Shown here: piece after piece, positions 30,659 through 64,000 of the stretch
Layout of the letters: each line of letters opens with the position of its first letter
Numbering within the stretch: the first letter of the stretch is position 1
Origin: an uncultured Paracoccaceae bacterium
GTDB taxonomy: Bacteria > Pseudomonadota > Alphaproteobacteria > Rhodobacterales > Rhodobacteraceae
DNA: 64,000 nucleotides
Assembly: GCA_947503775.1 (NCBI GenBank)
Contig: CANNFE010000007.1
Location: forward strand, 124,001 to 188,000
Direction of reading: 5' to 3'
The notes under the pieces: generated by a model
Told to the model about the DNA's origin: nothing
Database searches by the model: none
Seen by the model: the letters and a program-made list of their open reading frames with translations, nothing else
Made by a program: the position numbers and the translations under genes

Positions 30659-31036
30659 ATGGCCTTTATACCGACCGACACCGTTTGCTGGACCGAGATT
30701 CCCGTCAGGGATCTAGACGCCTCTACCGCGTTCTATAAAACCGTGTTCGACTGGGAGATGCAGCGGGTCGATGAAGAGCCGAACCCGACGGTGTTCTTCA
30801 AACCGGATATGGATGAGGCCGGGATATCGGGCCATCTTTATCCCGGCACCCCGTCCGAGAACGGACCGACGATCCATCTGGTTGTGCCGGACAGCCTGAG
30901 CGCCGCGAAGGATCGCTGCACGGCGGCCGGGGGCAAGGTGATCGGCGACGATGTCGAGATCCCGGCGGGTAAATTCTGCTATGCCAACGATCCTGACGGC
31001 AACTCCATCGGCCTTTTCGAGCGAAGCGGTCAATGA
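30659..31036 (+). CDS. VOC (glyoxalase/bleomycin resistance) family protein
   Basis: A 125-residue vicinal-oxygen-chelate fold protein (CWTEIPVRDLDASTAFYKTV near the N-terminus and FCYANDPDGNSIGLFE at the C-terminal end). Family members bind a metal and act on glutathione adducts or dioxygenase substrates. It overlaps the YafY-like regulator gene by 4 bp (ATGA), so the pair is translationally coupled. The start at 30659 follows a GGAGA site. Confidence 0.85.
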   Translation: MAFIPTDTVCWTEIPVRDLDASTAFYKTVFDWEMQRVDEEPNPTVFFKPDMDEAGISGHLYPGTPSENGPTIHLVVPDSLSAAKDRCTAAGGKVIGDDVEIPAGKFCYANDPDGNSIGLFERSGQ

Positions 31037-45810: not shown

Positions 45811-47166
45811 TCACTTCACCCCAGGAGAGCCGTCGAATTTCTTCTCCAGCCCGTCCCAGCACTCGACATAGTCGTCCTGAAGCGGCGCCTCCTCGGCGGC
45901 AAAGCGTGTCAGATGCTGCGGAAAGCGGGTCTCGAACATGAAGGACATCGTATCGGCCAGCTTCTCGGGCTGCAGATAGGCCTGTGAGGCGTGTTCGAAG
46001 GCAGGCCCGTCCGGCCCATGGGGCAGCATCATGTTGTGCAGGCTGATCCCGCCGGGCACGAAGCCCTTGGGCTTGGCGTCATAGATGCCGTGAATGTTGC
46101 CCATCAGCTCGGACATGATGTTCTTGTGATACCAGGGCGGGCGGAACGTGTGCTCGGCGACGGTCCAACGGTCTCGGAAAAGGACGAAATCGATATTGGC
46201 TGTCCCCTCGACGCCCGAGGGCGCCGTCAGCACGGTAAAGATCGACGGATCGGGGTGATCGAAAAGCATCGCGCCGACCGGAGAGAACGTCCGCAGATCG
46301 TATTTGCAGGGCGCGTAGTTCCCATGCCAGGCGACCACGTCCAAAGGCGAATGGTCGATCTCGGTGACATGGAACTGACCGCACCATTTGATGGTGATCC
46401 GGCTCGGGGTCTCGCGGTCCTCGAAGGCGGCGACGGGGGTCTTGAAATCGCGCGGATTGGCCAGGCAGTTGGCGCCGATCGGGCCGCGACTGGGCAGATC
46501 GAACTTGGCGCCGTAATTCTCGCAGACAAAGCCGCGGGCCGGCCCCTCCAGCACCTCGGCGCGGAACACCATGCCCCGGGGCAGGATCGCGATCTCCTGC
46601 GGCTCGACATCCATCACCCCCATCTCGGTATGAAACCGCAGCCGCCCGGCCTGCGGCACGACGAGAAGCTCGCTATCGGCGGAGTAGAAGTAGTCGTCCA
46701 CCATCGAGGCGGTGGCCAGATAGACATGCGCCGCCATCCCGACCTGCATATTCACGTCGCCTGCCGTCGTCATCGTGCGCATTCCGGTGAGGAAGGTCAG
46801 CTCGTCATCCGGGACAGGAACCGGGTCCCAGCGGTACTGGCCCAGAGAGATCACGTCCTCCACCACATGCGGGGCGGTCTTCCAGCCGGGAATGCCCGTC
46901 TTGACCCAGCGCGACTGATGACGGACCGACGGCCTGATCCGGTAACACCAGGTGCGTTCGTTCTGGCCCCGCGGTGCCGTGAAGGGCGTGCCGGAAAGCT
47001 GCTCGGCATAAAGACCGTAGGCGCATTTCTGTGGGGAATTCTGACCCTGCGGCAGGGCTTCTTCCAGCGCTTCGGTCTCGAAATCGTTGCCAAAGCCGGG
47101 CATGTAGGTTGCTGGCGGGCCGGTTCGAGCCGATGTTTCGGGATCCGGGGCGTTCTGGACGTTCAT
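45811..47166 (-). CDS. hmgA: homogentisate 1,2-dioxygenase
   Basis: A 451-residue Fe(II) ring-cleaving dioxygenase. Iron ligands lie in [14 protein letters not shown] (His and Glu) and LPHGPDG (His). [18 protein letters not shown] near the N-terminus is family-typical. It opens homogentisate, the intermediate of tyrosine and phenylalanine breakdown, to maleylacetoacetate. It is the first gene of the operon hmgA, MBL, FAH. Confidence 0.94.
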
Positions 47167-47221: not shown

Positions 47222-47298
47222 CACGATCTTCTAGAAGATCGTGGATCCCAAAATCTTCGTCGAAGATTTTGAAGATCAGAATTTTCTAGAAAATTCTG
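47222..47298. repeat. three tandem 21/22-bp palindromes upstream of hmgA
   Basis: Palindrome A 47222-47243 has arms CACGATCTTCT / AGAAGATCGTG (perfect). B 47250-47270 has 10-bp arms AAAATCTTCG / CGAAGATTTT around one T. C 47277-47298 has arms CAGAATTTTCT / AGAAAATTCTG (perfect). They are 6 bp apart, between the divergent genes hmgA and tpa. The same family recurs at 59899 and 63220. Whether they act as DNA sites or RNA hairpins is open. Confidence 0.85.
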
Positions 47299-47415: not shown

Positions 47416-48798
47416 ATGACTTTGCCGTTCAATGATCCGTCCGCCATCGTCGAAGCGGACCGGGCCCATGTCTGGCACCATCTGATCCAGCACAAACCTT
47501 TCGAGACAGCCGATCCCCGGATCATCGTTGAAGGCAAGGGCATGCGTGTCTGGGACATCACTGGCAAGGAGCATATCGATGCCATGTCGGGCGGCGTCTG
47601 GACAGTCAATGTAGGCTATGGGCGCGAGCGCATCGCCAATGCCGTGCGAGACCAGCTGATCAAGCTCAACTTCTTTGCAGGCGCGGCCGGAACGGTCCCC
47701 GGCTCGCAATTCGCCGAGCGGCTGATCTCGAAGATGCCGGGCCTGAGCCGGGTTTACTACGCCAATAGCGGATCGGAGGCGAATGAGAAGGGCTTCAAGA
47801 TGGTCCGCCAGATCGCCCATAAGGTCCATGGCGGCAAGAAGTGGAAGATCCTCTATCGCGACCGCGACTATCACGGCACGACGATGGGTGCTCTTGCCGC
47901 GGGCGGGCAGGACGAGCGCAATGCGCAATACGGCCCCTTCGCCCCCGGCTTTGTGCGCGTGCCCCACTGCATCGAATATCGCGCCCATGAACTGGGACTC
48001 GAGCCCGGCCCGGGCTTCGGCGTCGCCGCCGCCAACCTCATCGAGGAGGTCATCCTGCGCGAGGGCCCCGATACCGTCGGCGCGATCTGCCTTGAGCCGG
48101 TCACGGCGGGCGGCGGCGTCGTGCCTCCGCCAGAGGGCTATTGGGACCGCGTGCAGGAGATCTGCCGCCAATACGATATCCTGCTGCATATCGACGAGGT
48201 CGTCTGCGGGATCGGGCGGACCGGCGCGTGGTTCGGCTATCAGCATTACGGGATCGAGCCGGATATCGTGACGATGGCCAAGGGTGTGGCCTCGGGCTAT
48301 GCCGCGATTTCCTGCTGCGTGACGACCGAGGCCGTGTTCGAGCAGTTCAAGGATGACAGCGATCCGATGAGCTATTTCCGGGATATCTCGACCTTTGGCG
48401 GCTGCACGGCGGGGCCTGCCGCCGCGCTCGAGAACATGGCGATCATCGAGGAGGAGAACCTTCTTGAGAACACCGTGCGGATGGAAGAGCGGCTTGTCGC
48501 GGGTCTGAACGGGCTGGCCGAGCGGCATGCGGCGATCGGGCAGGTGCGCGGCAAGGGTCTGTTTCAGGGCGCCGAGCTGGTCAAGGACCGCGAGACCAAG
48601 GAGCCGCTAGGCGAAAAGGAGGTCGGCGCGATCCTGGCCGATTGCATGGCGCAGGGGGTCATCGTGGGGGCGACAAACCGGTCGGTTCCAGGGCGCAATA
48701 ATACGCTGTGCCTGTCGCCCGCGCTGATTGCGACTGCCGATGATATCGATCAGATCGTGAAGGCGATCGATGGCGCCCTGACGCGGCTGCTATCGTAA
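47416..48798 (+). CDS. tpa: taurine-pyruvate aminotransferase (class III aminotransferase)
   Basis: A 460-residue PLP enzyme of class III. Recognisable pieces are WHHLIQHKPFE at the N-terminus, VYYANSGSEANEKGFKMVRQ, YRDRDYHGTTMGALAAGGQD, HIDEVVCGIGRTGAWFG and VTMAKGVASGYA, whose lysine binds PLP. The overall pattern is that of Tpa, which converts taurine and pyruvate to sulfoacetaldehyde and alanine. No tauABC or xsc is in the window, but a sulfite dehydrogenase-type operon is 3.5 kb away. An omega-amino acid aminotransferase role is the main alternative. CAGGGAGC precedes the ATG. Confidence 0.8.
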   Translation: MTLPFNDPSAIVEADRAHVWHHLIQHKPFETADPRIIVEGKGMRVWDITGKEHIDAMSGGVWTVNVGYGRERIANAVRDQLIKLNFFAGAAGTVPGSQFAERLISKMPGLSRVYYANSGSEANEKGFKMVRQIAHKVHGGKKWKILYRDRDYHGTTMGALAAGGQDERNAQYGPFAPGFVRVPHCIEYRAHELGLEPGPGFGVAAANLIEEVILREGPDTVGAICLEPVTAGGGVVPPPEGYWDRVQEICRQYDILLHIDEVVCGIGRTGAWFGYQHYGIEPDIVTMAKGVASGYAAISCCVTTEAVFEQFKDDSDPMSYFRDISTFGGCTAGPAAALENMAIIEEENLLENTVRMEERLVAGLNGLAERHAAIGQVRGKGLFQGAELVKDRETKEPLGEKEVGAILADCMAQGVIVGATNRSVPGRNNTLCLSPALIATADDIDQIVKAIDGALTRLLS

Positions 48799-52317: not shown

Positions 52318-55131
52318 ATGACACAGCCCGCCCTCGACACCTCGCCCCCCGTTTCGGACGAGGTGCGCCAGACAACCTGCTACATGTGTGCCTGCCGCTG
52401 CGGGATCAATGTCCATCTCAAGGACGGCGCGGTCGCTTATATCGAGGGCAATCGCGATCACCCGGTCAATCGCGGCGTGCTCTGCGCCAAGGGGGCGGCC
52501 GGGATCATGCAGCACAATTCGCCCGCCCGCCTACGCGCGCCGCTGCGCCGCACCGGGCCGCGCGGATCGGGCGAGTTCGAAGAGATCACCTGGGATGAGG
52601 CGCTCGAGACGGCGGTGTCCTGGATGGCACCCCTGCGCGAGACGGCGCCCGAGAAGCTGGCCTTCTTCACCGGGCGCGATCAGTCGCAAAGCTTTACGAG
52701 CTTCTGGGCGCAGTCCTTCGGCACGCCCAACTATGCGGCCCATGGCGGCTTTTGCTCGGTCAATATGGCGGCGGCCGGGATCTCGACCATGGGCGGCGCC
52801 TTCTGGGAGTTCGGGCAGCCCGACTGGGAGCGCGCTAAGCTGTTCCTGATCTTCGGCGTGGCCGAGGATCACGACAGCAACCCGATCAAGATGGGGATCG
52901 GGAAGCTCAAGGCGCGGGGTGCGCGGGTGATCGGGGTGAACCCAATCCGGACGGGCTATAATGCCGTGGCCGATGACTGGTTCGGGATTACCCCCGGCAC
53001 GGACGGGCTGCTGATCACGGCGCTGATCCACGAGCTGATGAAGGCCGGGCAGATCGATCTGGACTATCTTGCTCGCTTCACCAACGCGCCCTGCCTCGTC
53101 GATGCGCGCGAAGGGGCGACGAACGGCTTGCTGCTCAAGGATGGCGAGGGGCGGGCCTTGGTCGTCGACCGGCGCACCGGCAGCCTCGCGCCCTGGGACG
53201 GCAAGGGGGTCGAACCGGATCTGGCGCCCGGCAAGACGCTGAGCGGGACGAAGCATCGGACCGTCCTTGATCATATGGCCGAGCATTTCCTCGATCCCGC
53301 CCATGCGCCCGAGGCGGTGGCGGAGCGGACGGGACTTCCGGCAGAGCGGATCCGCGCCCTCGCCGCGCTGCTGGCCAGAACGGCGTTCGAGGATCCGATC
53401 GTCTTGGACCGGCCCTGGACGGATTTTCGCGGCCACCGGCACGAGACGATGATCGGGCGGCCCATCGCGATGCATGCGATGCGCGGGATCTCGGCCCATT
53501 CCAACGGGTTCCAGACCTGCCGCGCCCTGCACATCCTGCAGATCCTGCTGGGGACGGTCGAAGTGCCCGGCGGCTTCCGGTTCAAGCCGCCCTATCCCAA
53601 ACCGATGACGGCCCATCCCAAGCCGCATGCCAAATGCGAGCCGGGTCAGCCGCTTGGCGGGCCTCATCTGGGCTTTCCGCACGGTCCCGAGGATCTGGCG
53701 CTCACACCCGACGGCGATCCGATCCGCATCGACAAGGCCTTTACCTGGGACAACCCGCTTTCGGCCCACGGCCTGATGCATATGGTGATCGCCAATGCCC
53801 ATGCGGGCGATCCCTACAAGATCGACACGCTGTTCCTCTACATGGCGAACATGGCGTGGAACTCGTCGATGAACACGCGCGCGGTGATGGATATGCTGTC
53901 CGATACGGAGGCGGATGGCAGCTACAAGATCCCGCATATCATCTATTCGGACGCCTATTCCTCGGAGATGGTCGCCTATGCCGATCTGATCCTGCCGGAT
54001 ACGACCTATCTGGAGAGGCATGATTGCATCTCATTGCTCGACCGGCCGATCTGCGAGGCGGATGCGGTGGCCGATGCGATCCGTTGGCCGGTGGTCGAGC
54101 CGGACCGCGACGTGCGGGGGTTTCAATCGGTTCTGGTCGATTTGGCGAACCGAATGGGGCTGCCCGGCTTTACCCATGAGGATGGCACCGCGAAATATGC
54201 CGACTATGCCGATTACATGGTCCATCATATGCGCCGTCCGGGGATCGGGCCACTTGCGGGTTGGCGGGCGGGCGAGGCCGGGTCCGGAGGACGCGGCGAG
54301 TCCCGGCCCGACCAACTCGAAAAATATATCGAGAACGGCGGCTTCTGGATGGAGCATGTCCCGGAGGATGCGGCCTTTTTCAAACCCTGGAACACCGCCT
54401 ATCAGGACTGGGCCGTCGCCAAGGGCTTTTACGACAGCCCGCAGCCCTACATCTTCAACCTCTGGCTCGAGCCCATGCGCCGGTTCCAGCTGGCCGCCGA
54501 GGGGCATGGCACCCGGCACCCCCCCGATCACCTGCGCGAGCAGATCCGGACCCATCTGACGCCCCTGCCGCATTGGCATGCGCCTCTGTCTGACGGCCTG
54601 ACGGATCCCGCTGCCTATCCGATCCATGCCCTCACGCAGCGCCCGATGGCGATGTACCACTCATGGGGCAGTCAGAATGCGTGGCTGCGGCAAATCCACG
54701 GGCGCAATCCGCTTTATGTGCCGACGGCGCTGATGGCGCTTCATGCCCTGACCGATGGCGATTGGGTGACGCTCACCTCCCCTCATGGGCAGATTACGGT
54801 GCCTGTTGCCCATATGGCCGCGCTGAACCCGCATACGGTCTGGACCTGGAATGCCATCGGCAAGCGGAAGGGGGCCTGGGCGCTCGATGAGGATGCGCCC
54901 GAAGCGACCAAGGGCTTTCTGCTCAACCATCTCATTCACGAGCTTCTTCCGCCGCGCGGGGATGGCCTCAGATGGTCGAATTCGGATCCCGTGACAGGCC
55001 AGGCGGCCTGGTTCGATCTGCGCGTGCGGATGGAAAAGACCGCTGCCCCGGCCGAGACGCTCCCGCAGACGGGCCGGCAGGCATCGCCCGTGCCGGACGC
55101 GCCCAGGCGCCTTGCGTGGAGCGTTCGATGA
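52318..55131 (+). CDS. soeA: sulfite dehydrogenase (quinone) molybdoprotein subunit SoeA
   Basis: A 937-residue molybdopterin (bis-MGD) enzyme of the DMSO reductase family. The N-terminal [4Fe-4S] site is C21-x2-C24-x3-C28 ... C56. GGFCSVNMAAAGI carries C146 where the family places a Mo ligand. There is no twin-arginine signal, so it faces the cytoplasm, as established for SoeA but not for periplasmic DmsA. FeS and membrane subunits follow. It would oxidise sulfite to sulfate and feed electrons to quinone. An unusual segment at residues about 648-667 is encoded by a GC-rich repeat that also occurs elsewhere in this operon. Confidence 0.8.
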   Translation: MTQPALDTSPPVSDEVRQTTCYMCACRCGINVHLKDGAVAYIEGNRDHPVNRGVLCAKGAAGIMQHNSPARLRAPLRRTGPRGSGEFEEITWDEALETAVSWMAPLRETAPEKLAFFTGRDQSQSFTSFWAQSFGTPNYAAHGGFCSVNMAAAGISTMGGAFWEFGQPDWERAKLFLIFGVAEDHDSNPIKMGIGKLKARGARVIGVNPIRTGYNAVADDWFGITPGTDGLLITALIHELMKAGQIDLDYLARFTNAPCLVDAREGATNGLLLKDGEGRALVVDRRTGSLAPWDGKGVEPDLAPGKTLSGTKHRTVLDHMAEHFLDPAHAPEAVAERTGLPAERIRALAALLARTAFEDPIVLDRPWTDFRGHRHETMIGRPIAMHAMRGISAHSNGFQTCRALHILQILLGTVEVPGGFRFKPPYPKPMTAHPKPHAKCEPGQPLGGPHLGFPHGPEDLALTPDGDPIRIDKAFTWDNPLSAHGLMHMVIANAHAGDPYKIDTLFLYMANMAWNSSMNTRAVMDMLSDTEADGSYKIPHIIYSDAYSSEMVAYADLILPDTTYLERHDCISLLDRPICEADAVADAIRWPVVEPDRDVRGFQSVLVDLANRMGLPGFTHEDGTAKYADYADYMVHHMRRPGIGPLAGWRAGEAGSGGRGESRPDQLEKYIENGGFWMEHVPEDAAFFKPWNTAYQDWAVAKGFYDSPQPYIFNLWLEPMRRFQLAAEGHGTRHPPDHLREQIRTHLTPLPHWHAPLSDGLTDPAAYPIHALTQRPMAMYHSWGSQNAWLRQIHGRNPLYVPTALMALHALTDGDWVTLTSPHGQITVPVAHMAALNPHTVWTWNAIGKRKGAWALDEDAPEATKGFLLNHLIHELLPPRGDGLRWSNSDPVTGQAAWFDLRVRMEKTAAPAETLPQTGRQASPVPDAPRRLAWSVR
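54258..54310. repeat. GC-rich hairpin repeat, copy 1, inside soeA
   Basis: A segment of about 50 bp contains GGGCGGGCGAGGCC and ACGCGGCGAGTCCCG, both shared with a second copy at 56966-57016. The outer bases (GGGC...GCCC) and the inner TCC-gga-GGA can pair. It lies in frame in soeA and encodes a Gly/Arg-rich segment (GWRAGEAGSGGRGESRPDQ). Confidence 0.6.
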
Positions 55132-59898: not shown

Positions 59899-59920
59899 CA
59901 GAATTTTCTAGAAGATTTTG
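59899..59920. terminator. 22-bp palindrome between convergent genes
   Basis: Arms CAGAATTTTCT and AGAAGATTTTG pair along all 11 positions if two G-U pairs are allowed, with the CTAG centre shared by the other members of the family (47222, 63220). Its place between two convergent stops, 15 and 4 bp away, fits a bidirectional terminator-like role. Confidence 0.55.
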
Positions 59921-61799: not shown

Positions 61800-61884
61800 T
61801 TGTCCTCCCTTGGGCCGGATCTGTGTCCGCCACCTGTTGACAAGCATGGGTGAGTCGGGGTGTCATTTCAATATCCAAAACCAA

Positions 61885-61901
61885 GTTCCAAATAATGGAA
61901 C
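61885..61901. promoter_or_regulatory. 17-bp palindrome, likely IclR operator
   Basis: GTTCCA-AATAA-TGGAAC is perfect in both 6-base arms and lies about 85 bp upstream of the IclR start and 27 bp before the binding-protein start. IclR-family sites are typically short palindromes of TTCCA/TGGAA type, which fits. Confidence 0.6.
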
Positions 61902-61927
61902 TGAATGGGATGCAAAGGGAGGAACCA

Positions 61928-63184
61928 ATGTCATCCATTCTCAAGGGTGCGGCGCTGGCCGTGCTGATGGGCTCGTCCGCCTTCGCGGCAGGCCATTCCG
62001 AGCCGCTGACCGGCGATCTTACGATCTTTCTCGACACCTCCAACCCCGCGCCGCGCGCGACGATGGAAGAGATGATCGGCCGCTTCCAGGAGATGCATCC
62101 CGATCTCAATATCGAGACCACGATCATCGACCGCGAGGCCTACAAGACTCAGATCCGCAACTTCCTGACCGCCAGTGCGCCCGATGTCGCGACCTGGTAT
62201 GCCGCCAACCGGATGCGTCCTTACGTGGATGCGGGCCTCTTCGAGGATGTCTCAGACCTGTGGGCCGAGCCTGAAATCGCCGAGAACCTCGCCTCCACCA
62301 AGGGCGCGATGACGATCGACGACAAGCAATGGGGCGTGCCCTACACCTATTATCAGTGGGGCGTTTATTACCGCGAAGATATCTTCAACGAGCTTGGCCT
62401 CGAAGAGCCGACGACCTGGGAGGAAGAGAAGGCCAACTGCCAGGCGATCATCGACTCGGGCCGCAAGTGCTACACGATCGGCACCAAGTTCCTGTGGACC
62501 GCCGGCGGCTGGTTCGACTACCTGAACATGCGCACCAACGGGTTCGATTTCCATATGGCGCTGACCCAGGGCGAGGTGGAATGGACCGATGACCGCGTCC
62601 GCCAGACCTTCGCCAACTGGCGCGAACTGATCGATATGGGTGCCTTTATCGACAATCACCAGACCTATAGCTGGCAGGAGGCCCTGCCCTTCATGGTGAG
62701 CGGTGAGGCGACGGCCTATCTGATGGGCAACTTCGCCGTGGCGCCGCTGCGGGAGGCCGGGCTGGGCGAGGATCAACTCGACTTCTATCAGTTCGTGCAG
62801 ATCAACCCCGATGTCGAGCTGTCCGAGGATGCCCCCACTGACACCTTCCACATCCCGGCCAATGCCGAGAACAAGGACAATGCCCGCGCCTTCCTGCGCT
62901 TCGTGGTCTCGGCAGAGAACCAGACGATCATCAATGGGGGCGACGCTCTGGGCCAGCTTCCGGTGAATGCGGCCTCCTCCGTGGATGATGACGAGATGCT
63001 GCAGCAGGGCTTTGAGATGCTGTCCTCGAATTCTCCGGGCGGGGTGGCGCAGTTCTTTGACCGCGACGCGCCGGCCGAGATGGCGTCGGTTGCGATGGAA
63101 GGCTTCCAAGAGTTCATGGTTTTCCCCGATAACCTCGATGATATCCTGAGCCGCCTCGAGCAGGCGCGTCAGCGGATTTACTGA
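61928..63184 (+). CDS. sugar ABC transporter substrate-binding protein
   Basis: A 418-residue group-1 extracellular binding protein. The signal peptide ends near residue 21 (MGSSAFAAG). The fold is visible in GDLTIFLDTSNPAPRATMEE, WGVPYTYYQWGVYYREDIFN and VSGEATAYLMGNFAVAPLRE. An AAAGGGAGGA ribosome site precedes the ATG; an in-frame start at 61850 lies in the operator region. It is followed by a strong hairpin and then the permease gene, a usual way to express binding protein in excess. Confidence 0.87.
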   Translation: MSSILKGAALAVLMGSSAFAAGHSEPLTGDLTIFLDTSNPAPRATMEEMIGRFQEMHPDLNIETTIIDREAYKTQIRNFLTASAPDVATWYAANRMRPYVDAGLFEDVSDLWAEPEIAENLASTKGAMTIDDKQWGVPYTYYQWGVYYREDIFNELGLEEPTTWEEEKANCQAIIDSGRKCYTIGTKFLWTAGGWFDYLNMRTNGFDFHMALTQGEVEWTDDRVRQTFANWRELIDMGAFIDNHQTYSWQEALPFMVSGEATAYLMGNFAVAPLREAGLGEDQLDFYQFVQINPDVELSEDAPTDTFHIPANAENKDNARAFLRFVVSAENQTIINGGDALGQLPVNAASSVDDDEMLQQGFEMLSSNSPGGVAQFFDRDAPAEMASVAMEGFQEFMVFPDNLDDILSRLEQARQRIY

Positions 63185-63191
63185 CCGCTCT

Positions 63192-63217
63192 GCCACGGCG
63201 CCTTCGGGTGCCGTGGC
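63192..63217 (+). terminator. UUCG hairpin after the binding-protein gene
   Basis: GCCACGGCGCC pairs with GGTGCCGTGGC around a TTCG loop (11 bp, one G-T wobble), starting 8 bp after the stop. With no T-run it probably acts as a partial terminator or 3'-end stabiliser between binding protein and permease. Confidence 0.65.
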
Positions 63218-63219
63218 GC

Positions 63220-63296
63220 CAAAATCTTCTAGAAGATTTTGCCTTCGCAGATTTTTCTAGAAAAATCTGGCCCAGCGAATTTTTCAGAAAATTCGC
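63220..63296. repeat. three tandem 22-bp palindromes between binding protein and permease genes
   Basis: Palindrome 1 (63220-63241) has arms CAAAATCTTCT / AGAAGATTTTG, perfect. Palindrome 2 (63248-63269) has arms CAGATTTTTCT / AGAAAAATCTG, perfect. Palindrome 3 (63275-63296) has arms GCGAATTTTTC / AGAAAATTCGC with a mismatch and a wobble at the centre. Gaps are 6 and 5 bp. Same family as at 47222 and 59899. Confidence 0.85.
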
Positions 63297-63321: not shown

Positions 63322-64000
63322 ATGACCGTCTCCCCCGCCGTTCCGACAGACCGCTACGTCCCGCCCCGCGGCTGGTACAAGCGCAACGAGATCCGCGTGA
63401 CGCCCTGGCTCTTTCTTGCGCCTGGGATCCTGTTCTTTCTGTTCTACGTGATCTTCCCCGTCTTCCAGAGCTTCAATCTGTCACTGTATAAGTGGGACGG
63501 ACTTGGAGAGGCCGAATATGTGGGCCTGCGCAACTACCAGGAACTGGCCACCGACCGCGCCTTCGAGACCTCGCTCTGGAACAATCTCAAATGGCTGCTG
63601 CTCTACCTGCTGGCCATTCCTGCCGGGCTCTTCATCGCGCTCTTCCTGAACCAGACCGTCACCGGCATCCGACTTTACAAGTCGCTTTTCTTCTTTCCAT
63701 TCGTGATTTCCCAGGTCGTTGTCGGCCTTGTCTTCACCTGGTTTTACGATCCGACCTTCGGTCTTCTGAACACGATCCTCGGCTGGTTCGGAGCGGGCCC
63801 CATTGCCGTTCTCGGCGATCCGACGCTGGCCACCTATGGGATCATCGCCGCCGGTCTTTGGCCGCAGACGGCCTACTGCATGATCCTCTATCTAACGGGC
63901 CTTAATGCCGTCGATCCCGAGCAGGTCGAGGCTGCGCGCCTTGATGGGGCAAAGGGATGGCGGATGCTGTGGTACGTCATCATCCCGCAGCTCAAGCCCG
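63322..64000 (+). CDS. sugar ABC transporter permease (MalF/UgpA type, partial, runs off the window)
   Basis: 226 codons are visible. After a hydrophilic N-terminus (about 30 residues) several hydrophobic helices follow (LFLAPGILFFLFYVIFPVFQ and LLLYLLAIPAGLFIALFL). The EAA-type loop begins with VEAARLDGAKGWRMLWYVII just before the edge. A GGAG site precedes the ATG. A second permease gene is expected beyond the window. Confidence 0.85.
   Translation, partial: MTVSPAVPTDRYVPPRGWYKRNEIRVTPWLFLAPGILFFLFYVIFPVFQSFNLSLYKWDGLGEAEYVGLRNYQELATDRAFETSLWNNLKWLLLYLLAIPAGLFIALFLNQTVTGIRLYKSLFFFPFVISQVVVGLVFTWFYDPTFGLLNTILGWFGAGPIAVLGDPTLATYGIIAAGLWPQTAYCMILYLTGLNAVDPEQVEAARLDGAKGWRMLWYVIIPQLKP

Follow-up and report, generated by a model that had tools for sequence, protein, structure and literature searches.

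A tandem palindromic repeat of the Rhodobacteraceae, REP/BIME-like in kind and placed mostly just past stop codons

What kind of element are three AT-rich palindromes that stand in a row between two genes of a GC-rich genome, and what might they do there? The Rhodobacteraceae, to which this uncultured bacterium belongs, are abundant marine bacteria with genetic models among them. The window (the whole stretch of DNA analysed, 64,000 nucleotides long) carries such a row at 47222-47298, which an initial annotation had described as 21- and 22-bp palindromes, two of them perfect over 22 bp, lying 6 bp apart between hmgA and tpa.

The palindromes of the window

The three palindromes are found where they had been placed, and the names of both neighbours agree with the proteins that these genes encode, as listed here with their coordinates in the window:

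45811..47166, minus strand: homogentisate 1,2-dioxygenase (HgmA_N, HgmA_C), flanking gene
47222..47243, no strand: unit 1, perfect palindrome of 22 bp with a TTCTAGAA core (CTAG centre)
47249..47271, no strand: unit 2, palindrome of 23 bp with a TTCGTCGAA core, one central base unpaired
47277..47298, no strand: unit 3, perfect palindrome of 22 bp with a TTCTAGAA core
47416..48798, plus strand: class-III aminotransferase (the tpa of the earlier description), flanking gene

All three units are perfect, not two, at 22, 23 and 22 bp. The 22-bp lengths stand, while the supposed 21-bp unit is 23 bp long, an outer C/G pair having been omitted from it. Likewise, the spacing of 6 and 6 bp holds if the middle unit is taken as 21 bp, but at its full 23 bp the gaps are 5 and 5 bp. 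The flanking genes are divergent, and the triple thus does not lie between gene ends, which makes it an atypical member of the family described below. A covariance model (R1), built partly from copies of this genome but without the pair at 47249-47298, matches that pair at 58.4 bits. In the predicted minimum-energy RNA fold, units 1 and 3 pair with each other and enclose unit 2 (-38.7 kcal/mol) instead of giving three separate hairpins, a pairing that may or may not form during RNA synthesis. The view that no named element matches is borne out, with an Rfam search of the window returning 0 families at the gathering score and no description of this repeat family found in open-licence papers.

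The window holds a second cluster and a solitary unit:

59899..59920, no strand: solo hybrid unit where two gene ends converge, 23.5 bits with R1
61850..63184, plus strand: ABC solute-binding protein SBP_bac_1, upstream of the second cluster, start uncertain
63193..63216, plus strand: GC-rich hairpin in the gap from the stop of the SBP_bac_1 gene to the second cluster, seen by eye, positions counted by hand
63220..63241, no strand: second cluster, unit 1, perfect palindrome of 22 bp
63248..63269, no strand: second cluster, unit 2, perfect palindrome of 22 bp
63275..63296, no strand: second cluster, unit 3, 9-bp arms with a loop of 4 nt
63322..63999, plus strand: ABC permease BPD_transp_1, downstream of the second cluster, cut by the window end

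The second triple (63220-63296) sits inside a likely operon that runs from the SBP_bac_1 gene to the permease gene. In the solo unit the left half matches one unit type and the right half the other, and it is probably the deletion scar of a twin cluster, the deletion having presumably passed through the common TTCTAGAA core.

Abundance and build of the repeat

How often such palindromes occur was counted in an 864-kb sample of this genome, put together from the window and from stretches of three contigs (400 kb from contig 1 and 200 kb from each of contigs 2 and 5). With a GC content of at most 50%, arms of at least 9 and loops of at most 5, the sample contains 40 AT-rich palindromes, whereas its three third-order Markov copies have 1, 3 and 5. 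Among the even-centred ones, 19 of 23 carry TTCTAGAA. When the TTCTAGAA octamer itself was taken as the starting point, 22 copies were found in the sample, and all 7 flanking pairs are formed in 19 of these 22; none of the 19 fully paired units falls in a called gene. The remaining three are a slipped unit in a cluster, the solo unit of the window and one in-gene copy with 2 of 7 pairs. Chance frequency and a mainly coding location, the two outcomes that had been named beforehand as speaking against a real element, are therefore not what the genome displays. The tandem pattern TTCTAGAA-N14-24-TTCTAGAA occurs at 20 places in this genome and its reversed control at 0, a strict-pattern scan of the genome contigs returned one locus, and the weak pattern matches C18 and C23 have no cluster at either.

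We catalogued 28 clusters in this genome, with units in twos or threes; those outside the 864-kb sample were picked by sequence pattern and not by position, and C1:224984, one of them, differs in its cores. The model matched one more cluster, at C2:391761, which stands outside the 28. Units are about 20-26 bp long and mostly AT-rich, the whole element measures about 45-110 bp, and spacers of 5 or 6 bp separate 36 of 47 neighbouring unit pairs (own clusters together with seven loci elsewhere). In this genome, 0 of 41 pairs of adjacent perfect units are identical, with shuffles averaging 3.4 (122 of 5000 as few), and the arms of neighbouring units are more unlike than those of shuffled neighbours (1 of 5000 as high).

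Pairing is kept while the arms change. Thirty-one twins were aligned, 25 of them own and 6 taken from other genomes, with units preselected for at most one mismatch. Standard pairs fill 99.6% of the 557 pair cells, and there are 123 two-sided changes, compared with a mean of 34 in shuffles, and 1 one-sided change. Since this set was preselected for pairing, the fair test is the octamer-first count given above (19 of 22 fully paired). Selection for pairing, as the initial annotation had proposed from constant length and changing arms, accords with both counts. Its corollary, that no one sequence is selected, holds less well, as pairing is not all that is kept: the TTCTAGAA core is preserved, and so is the order of the half-arms (about 10-11 bp), which mostly consist of a purine run followed by a pyrimidine run, both here and in seven other genera, less strictly in two of the genomes (G065 and G081). 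A binding site for a single regulator is ruled out, with arms and cores varying within and between genomes.

The unit hairpins are weak, averaging -7.5 kcal/mol over 72 units of this genome. The flanks of this genome's clusters are rich in G to the left and in C to the right. An outer GC stem closing the element is nevertheless rejected, since shuffled flank partners paired at least as well as the real ones in 480 of 500 trials for this genome and in 69 of 500 for G186, the best of 8 groups. In the corresponding test for a MITE, no copy-specific outer (terminal) inverted repeat was found. Nor do the loops show a clear sense-strand bias, TCTGGA occurring 17 times and TCCAGA 11 times among 68 asymmetric centres between co-directional gene pairs, so that the loops do not favour RNA over DNA as the level at which the repeat acts.

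Placement and turnover across the family

The clusters of this genome are placed at gene ends. Of the 28, 25 follow a stop codon at a distance of at most 40 bp; the three others are the reported divergent copy and two more. The flanking genes are convergent at 10 clusters, co-directional at 16 and divergent at 2. In the unbiased sample 9 of 10 clusters are near a stop, compared with 7.8% expected for a uniform intergenic position or 33% for a uniform gap. The suggestion that copies would be found at 3′ ends therefore holds, as far as gene ends go, for 25 of the 28 clusters, although not for the very copy that gave rise to it. Eight genomes were searched in depth and 60 sites were read in seven of them; in these seven other genera, 54 of the 60 sites, which represent the top of the model ranking and not a random draw, lie at most 40 bp after a stop, and one of the six non-conforming sites (L236) is a chance palindrome that a script picked inside a gene. 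Across 100 adjacent gene ends of the eight genomes (taken from a simple gene caller, except on annotated plasmids), stop and cluster are a median of 6.5 nt apart, and at 48 of them the distance is 5 nt or less, overlaps included.

At these ends a U-tract after the cluster is absent (0-2 T in the next 8 nt at 82 of the 100), and a classical terminator follows within 120 nt at 1 of the 100. Classical terminators are also rare at other gene ends of this genome (13 of 417 in a strict test). With stems that are mostly AT-rich and no unpaired T-run, the repeat is ruled out as a classical intrinsic terminator.

At E ≤ 0.01 the twin covariance model matches at least 44 of 197 family genera, our own included, and at E ≤ 0.001 at least 37 of 197; the former is probably an undercount, R1 having been trained mainly on the style of this genome and the number of candidates taken per genome having been limited. 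The family is taken here as Rhodobacteraceae in the wide sense (Ruegeria is filed by NCBI under Roseobacteraceae), and the matched genomes would belong to it judging by their named relatives. In a survey of 289 genomes of the class, at least 4 of them from the family, 2 matched at E ≤ 0.001, both in the family, and none outside it. Arm sequences are specific to each genus, as is, in part, the build: G186 has three 24-bp units at most sites, G104 mostly three units, G065 and G081 two units, and G111, G005 and G067 two units 0-5 nt apart. Unbiased stretches hold 0 AT-rich palindromes in 140 kb of G065, 6 in 140 kb of G104 and 2 in 120 kb of G013, compared with 0-1 in Markov copies, and few of these are tandem; the model matches 20 times in G065 and 40 times in G104. 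The first 100 kb of the Ruegeria pomeroyi DSS-3 megaplasmid carry two twins, one downstream of nqrF and the other in the gcvT-gcvH gap, and 50 kb each of named plasmids of Ruegeria TM1040, Dinoroseobacter shibae and Paracoccus denitrificans carry no clear twin, from which it follows that density varies. Ruegeria pomeroyi DSS-3 is cultured, and the questions of mRNA ends and mobility raised below are testable in it. Two stretches of NC_006569 were singled out, 30745-30859 and 53014-53133.

Sites occupied in one genome can be empty in its relatives. No tandem AT-rich palindromes occur within 1.5 kb of hmgA in ten relatives of the family with a clear orthologue (75-81% identity), and 3 of the 10 have a single shorter palindrome in this region. 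The gcvT-gcvH twin is common to R. pomeroyi and G031, whose GcvH proteins are 96% identical. At this one locus, on which the evidence for arm conservation between species is based, 38 of 38 arm bases are the same by hand count, both loops differ, and 8 of 47 bases differ in the 3′ flank. The gcvT-gcvH gap is only 17-18 nt in Ruegeria SCSIO 43209, AD91A, R. conchae and Phaeobacter inhibens, 65 nt and without a twin in Aliiroseovarius, and free of palindromes in G038 and G004. These two and G031 make up the 3 of 30 gcvH loci that were anchored and read (L277 filled, L278 and L299 without palindromes). In the corresponding stretch of G031 the twin that follows nqrF in R. pomeroyi is missing, and three other Ruegeria and a Leisingera have, by eye, a terminator-like hairpin after nqrF without a twin. 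A GC hairpin, again by eye, precedes the twin at both R. pomeroyi sites, with no T-run at nqrF. In one case the repeat lies inside a gene: at 1680-1729 of L016, from a Rhodobacteraceae MAG (UBA10424), a twin is contained in frame within XdhC, where three homologues are without about 31 residues, an insertion longer than the twin itself.

As a separate observation on the hmgA region, GTTGCA/TTTGCAAC-like motifs lie upstream of the gene in five relatives (L254, L258, L260, L261 and L262) and are possibly an operator of the homogentisate genes.

Kinship with known repeats and possible function

The repeat is a short palindromic intergenic repeat, REP/BIME-like but not REP proper. REP elements are described as dispersed palindromes of 20-40 bp, often grouped, mostly between genes and sometimes inside them (PMC3733652), and the repeat shares with the GTAG class of REP/BIME its palindrome size, its many copies and its extragenic position. 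In contrast to that class, its units are nearly all perfectly symmetric with arms that vary within the genome, and neither the tag nor the transposase is found: the 6-nt flanks of 68 perfect units of this genome contain GTAG in 4 cases and CTAC in 1, and no match to the Y1/RAYT transposase (PF01797) was detected in this draft (99% complete), with the control positive in 5 of 14 genomes. CGTC repeats are apparently without a dedicated transposase (PMC3733652), and RPE are about 150 bp long with many integrations in genes (PMC10969869). Both are short palindromic repeats, and one clear in-frame insertion, the XdhC copy of L016, may recall them; unlike them, the present repeat has no CGTC tag (2 of 68 units with CGTC and 3 of 68 with GACG in the 6-nt flanks), is about 45-110 bp long and is mostly intergenic. 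Tag and transposase thus rule out classical REP or RPE. If the repeat is mobile, it is a family of palindromic repeats that lacks both the customary transposase and the tag, and the enzyme that moves it can be sought.

Other comparisons are looser. Short intergenic repeats include CIR of Caulobacter and RIME of rhizobia. Together with MITEs, these resemble the present repeat in being short, non-autonomous, mostly intergenic and lineage-specific (CIR and RIME by description only), and the difference from MITEs is the lack of a copy-specific terminal inverted repeat. In low-GC firmicutes AT-rich stem-loops occur near stop codons, and that study, covering 40 genomes, states that such AT-rich structures are missing from other bacteria (PMC1590033). 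One unit type here has a comparable A-run at its 5′ foot and T-run at its 3′ foot, in contrast occurring in a GC-rich host, in tandem rows of 2-3 units and with no unpaired T-tract. Inverted repeats after stop codons have been reported in general (PMC13155455; PMC6060812), and in Rhodobacter sphaeroides the PNPase-dependent 3′ ends yielded no motif (PMC7866481). A term search found no mention of Rhodobacter, Paracoccus, Roseobacter or Ruegeria in the main text of PMC3733652, nor of Rhodobacter in the MITE review PMC10969869.

Class and placement are observed; what the repeat does is something we infer. We tentatively favour, at somewhat short of an even chance, a dispersed, non-autonomous, REP/BIME-like repeat of the Rhodobacteraceae whose rows of hairpins would shield the 3′ ends of mRNAs from exonucleases. 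Copies would spread as non-autonomous DNA moved by some enzyme (no mobilising enzyme was found for the repeat) and would survive mainly where insertion is harmless or useful, that is, just past stop codons. There they would be transcribed as a row of hairpins that hinders 3′-to-5′ exonucleases, and this barrier would set the 3′ end and lifetime of the upstream message. Such a barrier would work on either strand, the palindromes being symmetric as DNA. In its favour are the placement just past stop codons, the pairing kept through two-sided changes, the copies in likely operons, the lack of a U-tract, the arms shared at gcvT-gcvH and the in-frame XdhC copy. Against it count the weakness of the unit hairpins, the loops without a clear strand bias, the absence from G031 of the other R. 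pomeroyi twin, and, for the reported triple, the predicted fold and the divergent genes. Stabilisation of mRNA is one of the roles hypothesised for REP (PMC3733652). If the hairpins do define mRNA ends, they mark operon structure and unequal expression in a way that can be seen in the sequence.

The main rival to the exonuclease barrier is weak bidirectional termination, in which the tandem hairpins would be non-canonical terminators that halt RNA polymerase themselves or show Rho where the end lies. We consider it rather unlikely. It would account for the convergent genes that flank 10 of 28 clusters here and 26 of 60 sites elsewhere, for the scarcity of classical terminators in this genome (the 13 of 417 gene ends), and for units of the CAAAATC..GATTTTG type, with an A-run and a T-run at the foot, which recall those of firmicutes (PMC1590033). 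The nqrF comparison, where the R. pomeroyi twin stands in place of the terminator-like hairpin of three other Ruegeria and a Leisingera, points to some role in termination and fits this rival better than the barrier. However, no unpaired U-tract lies downstream, and in two genera (L130 and L132, both outside the 100 ends scored for terminators) a classical GC hairpin with a T-run directly follows the twin by eye. Copies also lie within likely operons, between the genes of a solute-binding protein and its permease here and between gcvT and gcvH in Ruegeria pomeroyi, which argues against full termination.

Two further readings were weighed. In the first, a purely selfish repeat, copying or template-directed correction would keep the pairing, and 3′ placement would reflect purging elsewhere. 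The relatives without tandem palindromes near hmgA, the short gcvT-gcvH gaps without a twin, the in-frame XdhC copy, the mixed units and the scar are all consistent with this, yet the stop-to-cluster median of 6.5 nt seems closer than mere avoidance of genes would call for, the arms at the one shared site are unchanged while flanks and loops vary, and neighbouring units differ from each other beyond chance (a level reached by 1 of 5000 shuffles), so that we regard it as quite improbable. More doubtful still is an element that acts as DNA at 3′ or convergent regions, as a cruciform, as curved DNA or as an array that binds protein; it might serve in supercoiling, another hypothesised REP role (PMC3733652). 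Perfect units with almost no G-U pairs (the single one-sided change in 557 cells of the preselected set), the purine-run/pyrimidine-run half-arms of about 10-11 bp kept across genera and loops without clear strand bias suit it, but cores and arms that vary between genera speak against one binding protein, and placement is tied to stop codons and not to intergenic DNA generally. These readings overlap, and their probabilities need not sum to one.

A broader proposal, which we think unlikely, is that the repeat is a gene-end element of a new type, family-wide and without a RAYT-type transposase. Its genus-specific spellings would follow a shared code (a purine and then a pyrimidine run, mirrored, in 2-3 unlike tandem units), in which sequence drifts and strand-symmetric pairing is enforced, as the hairpins would serve both strands as a general 3′-end signal, at some ends replacing a classical terminator.

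Other sequences of the same genome were noted in passing. Palindromes of 23 bp with a TCCACTGGA centre lie at C1:336939-336961, C1:337027-337049 and C5:190286-190308, two of them 65 bp apart, and are possibly another repeat family. At C2:176322-176339 stands ATGTTTCACGTGAAACAT, which resembles the consensus of a ParB parS site.
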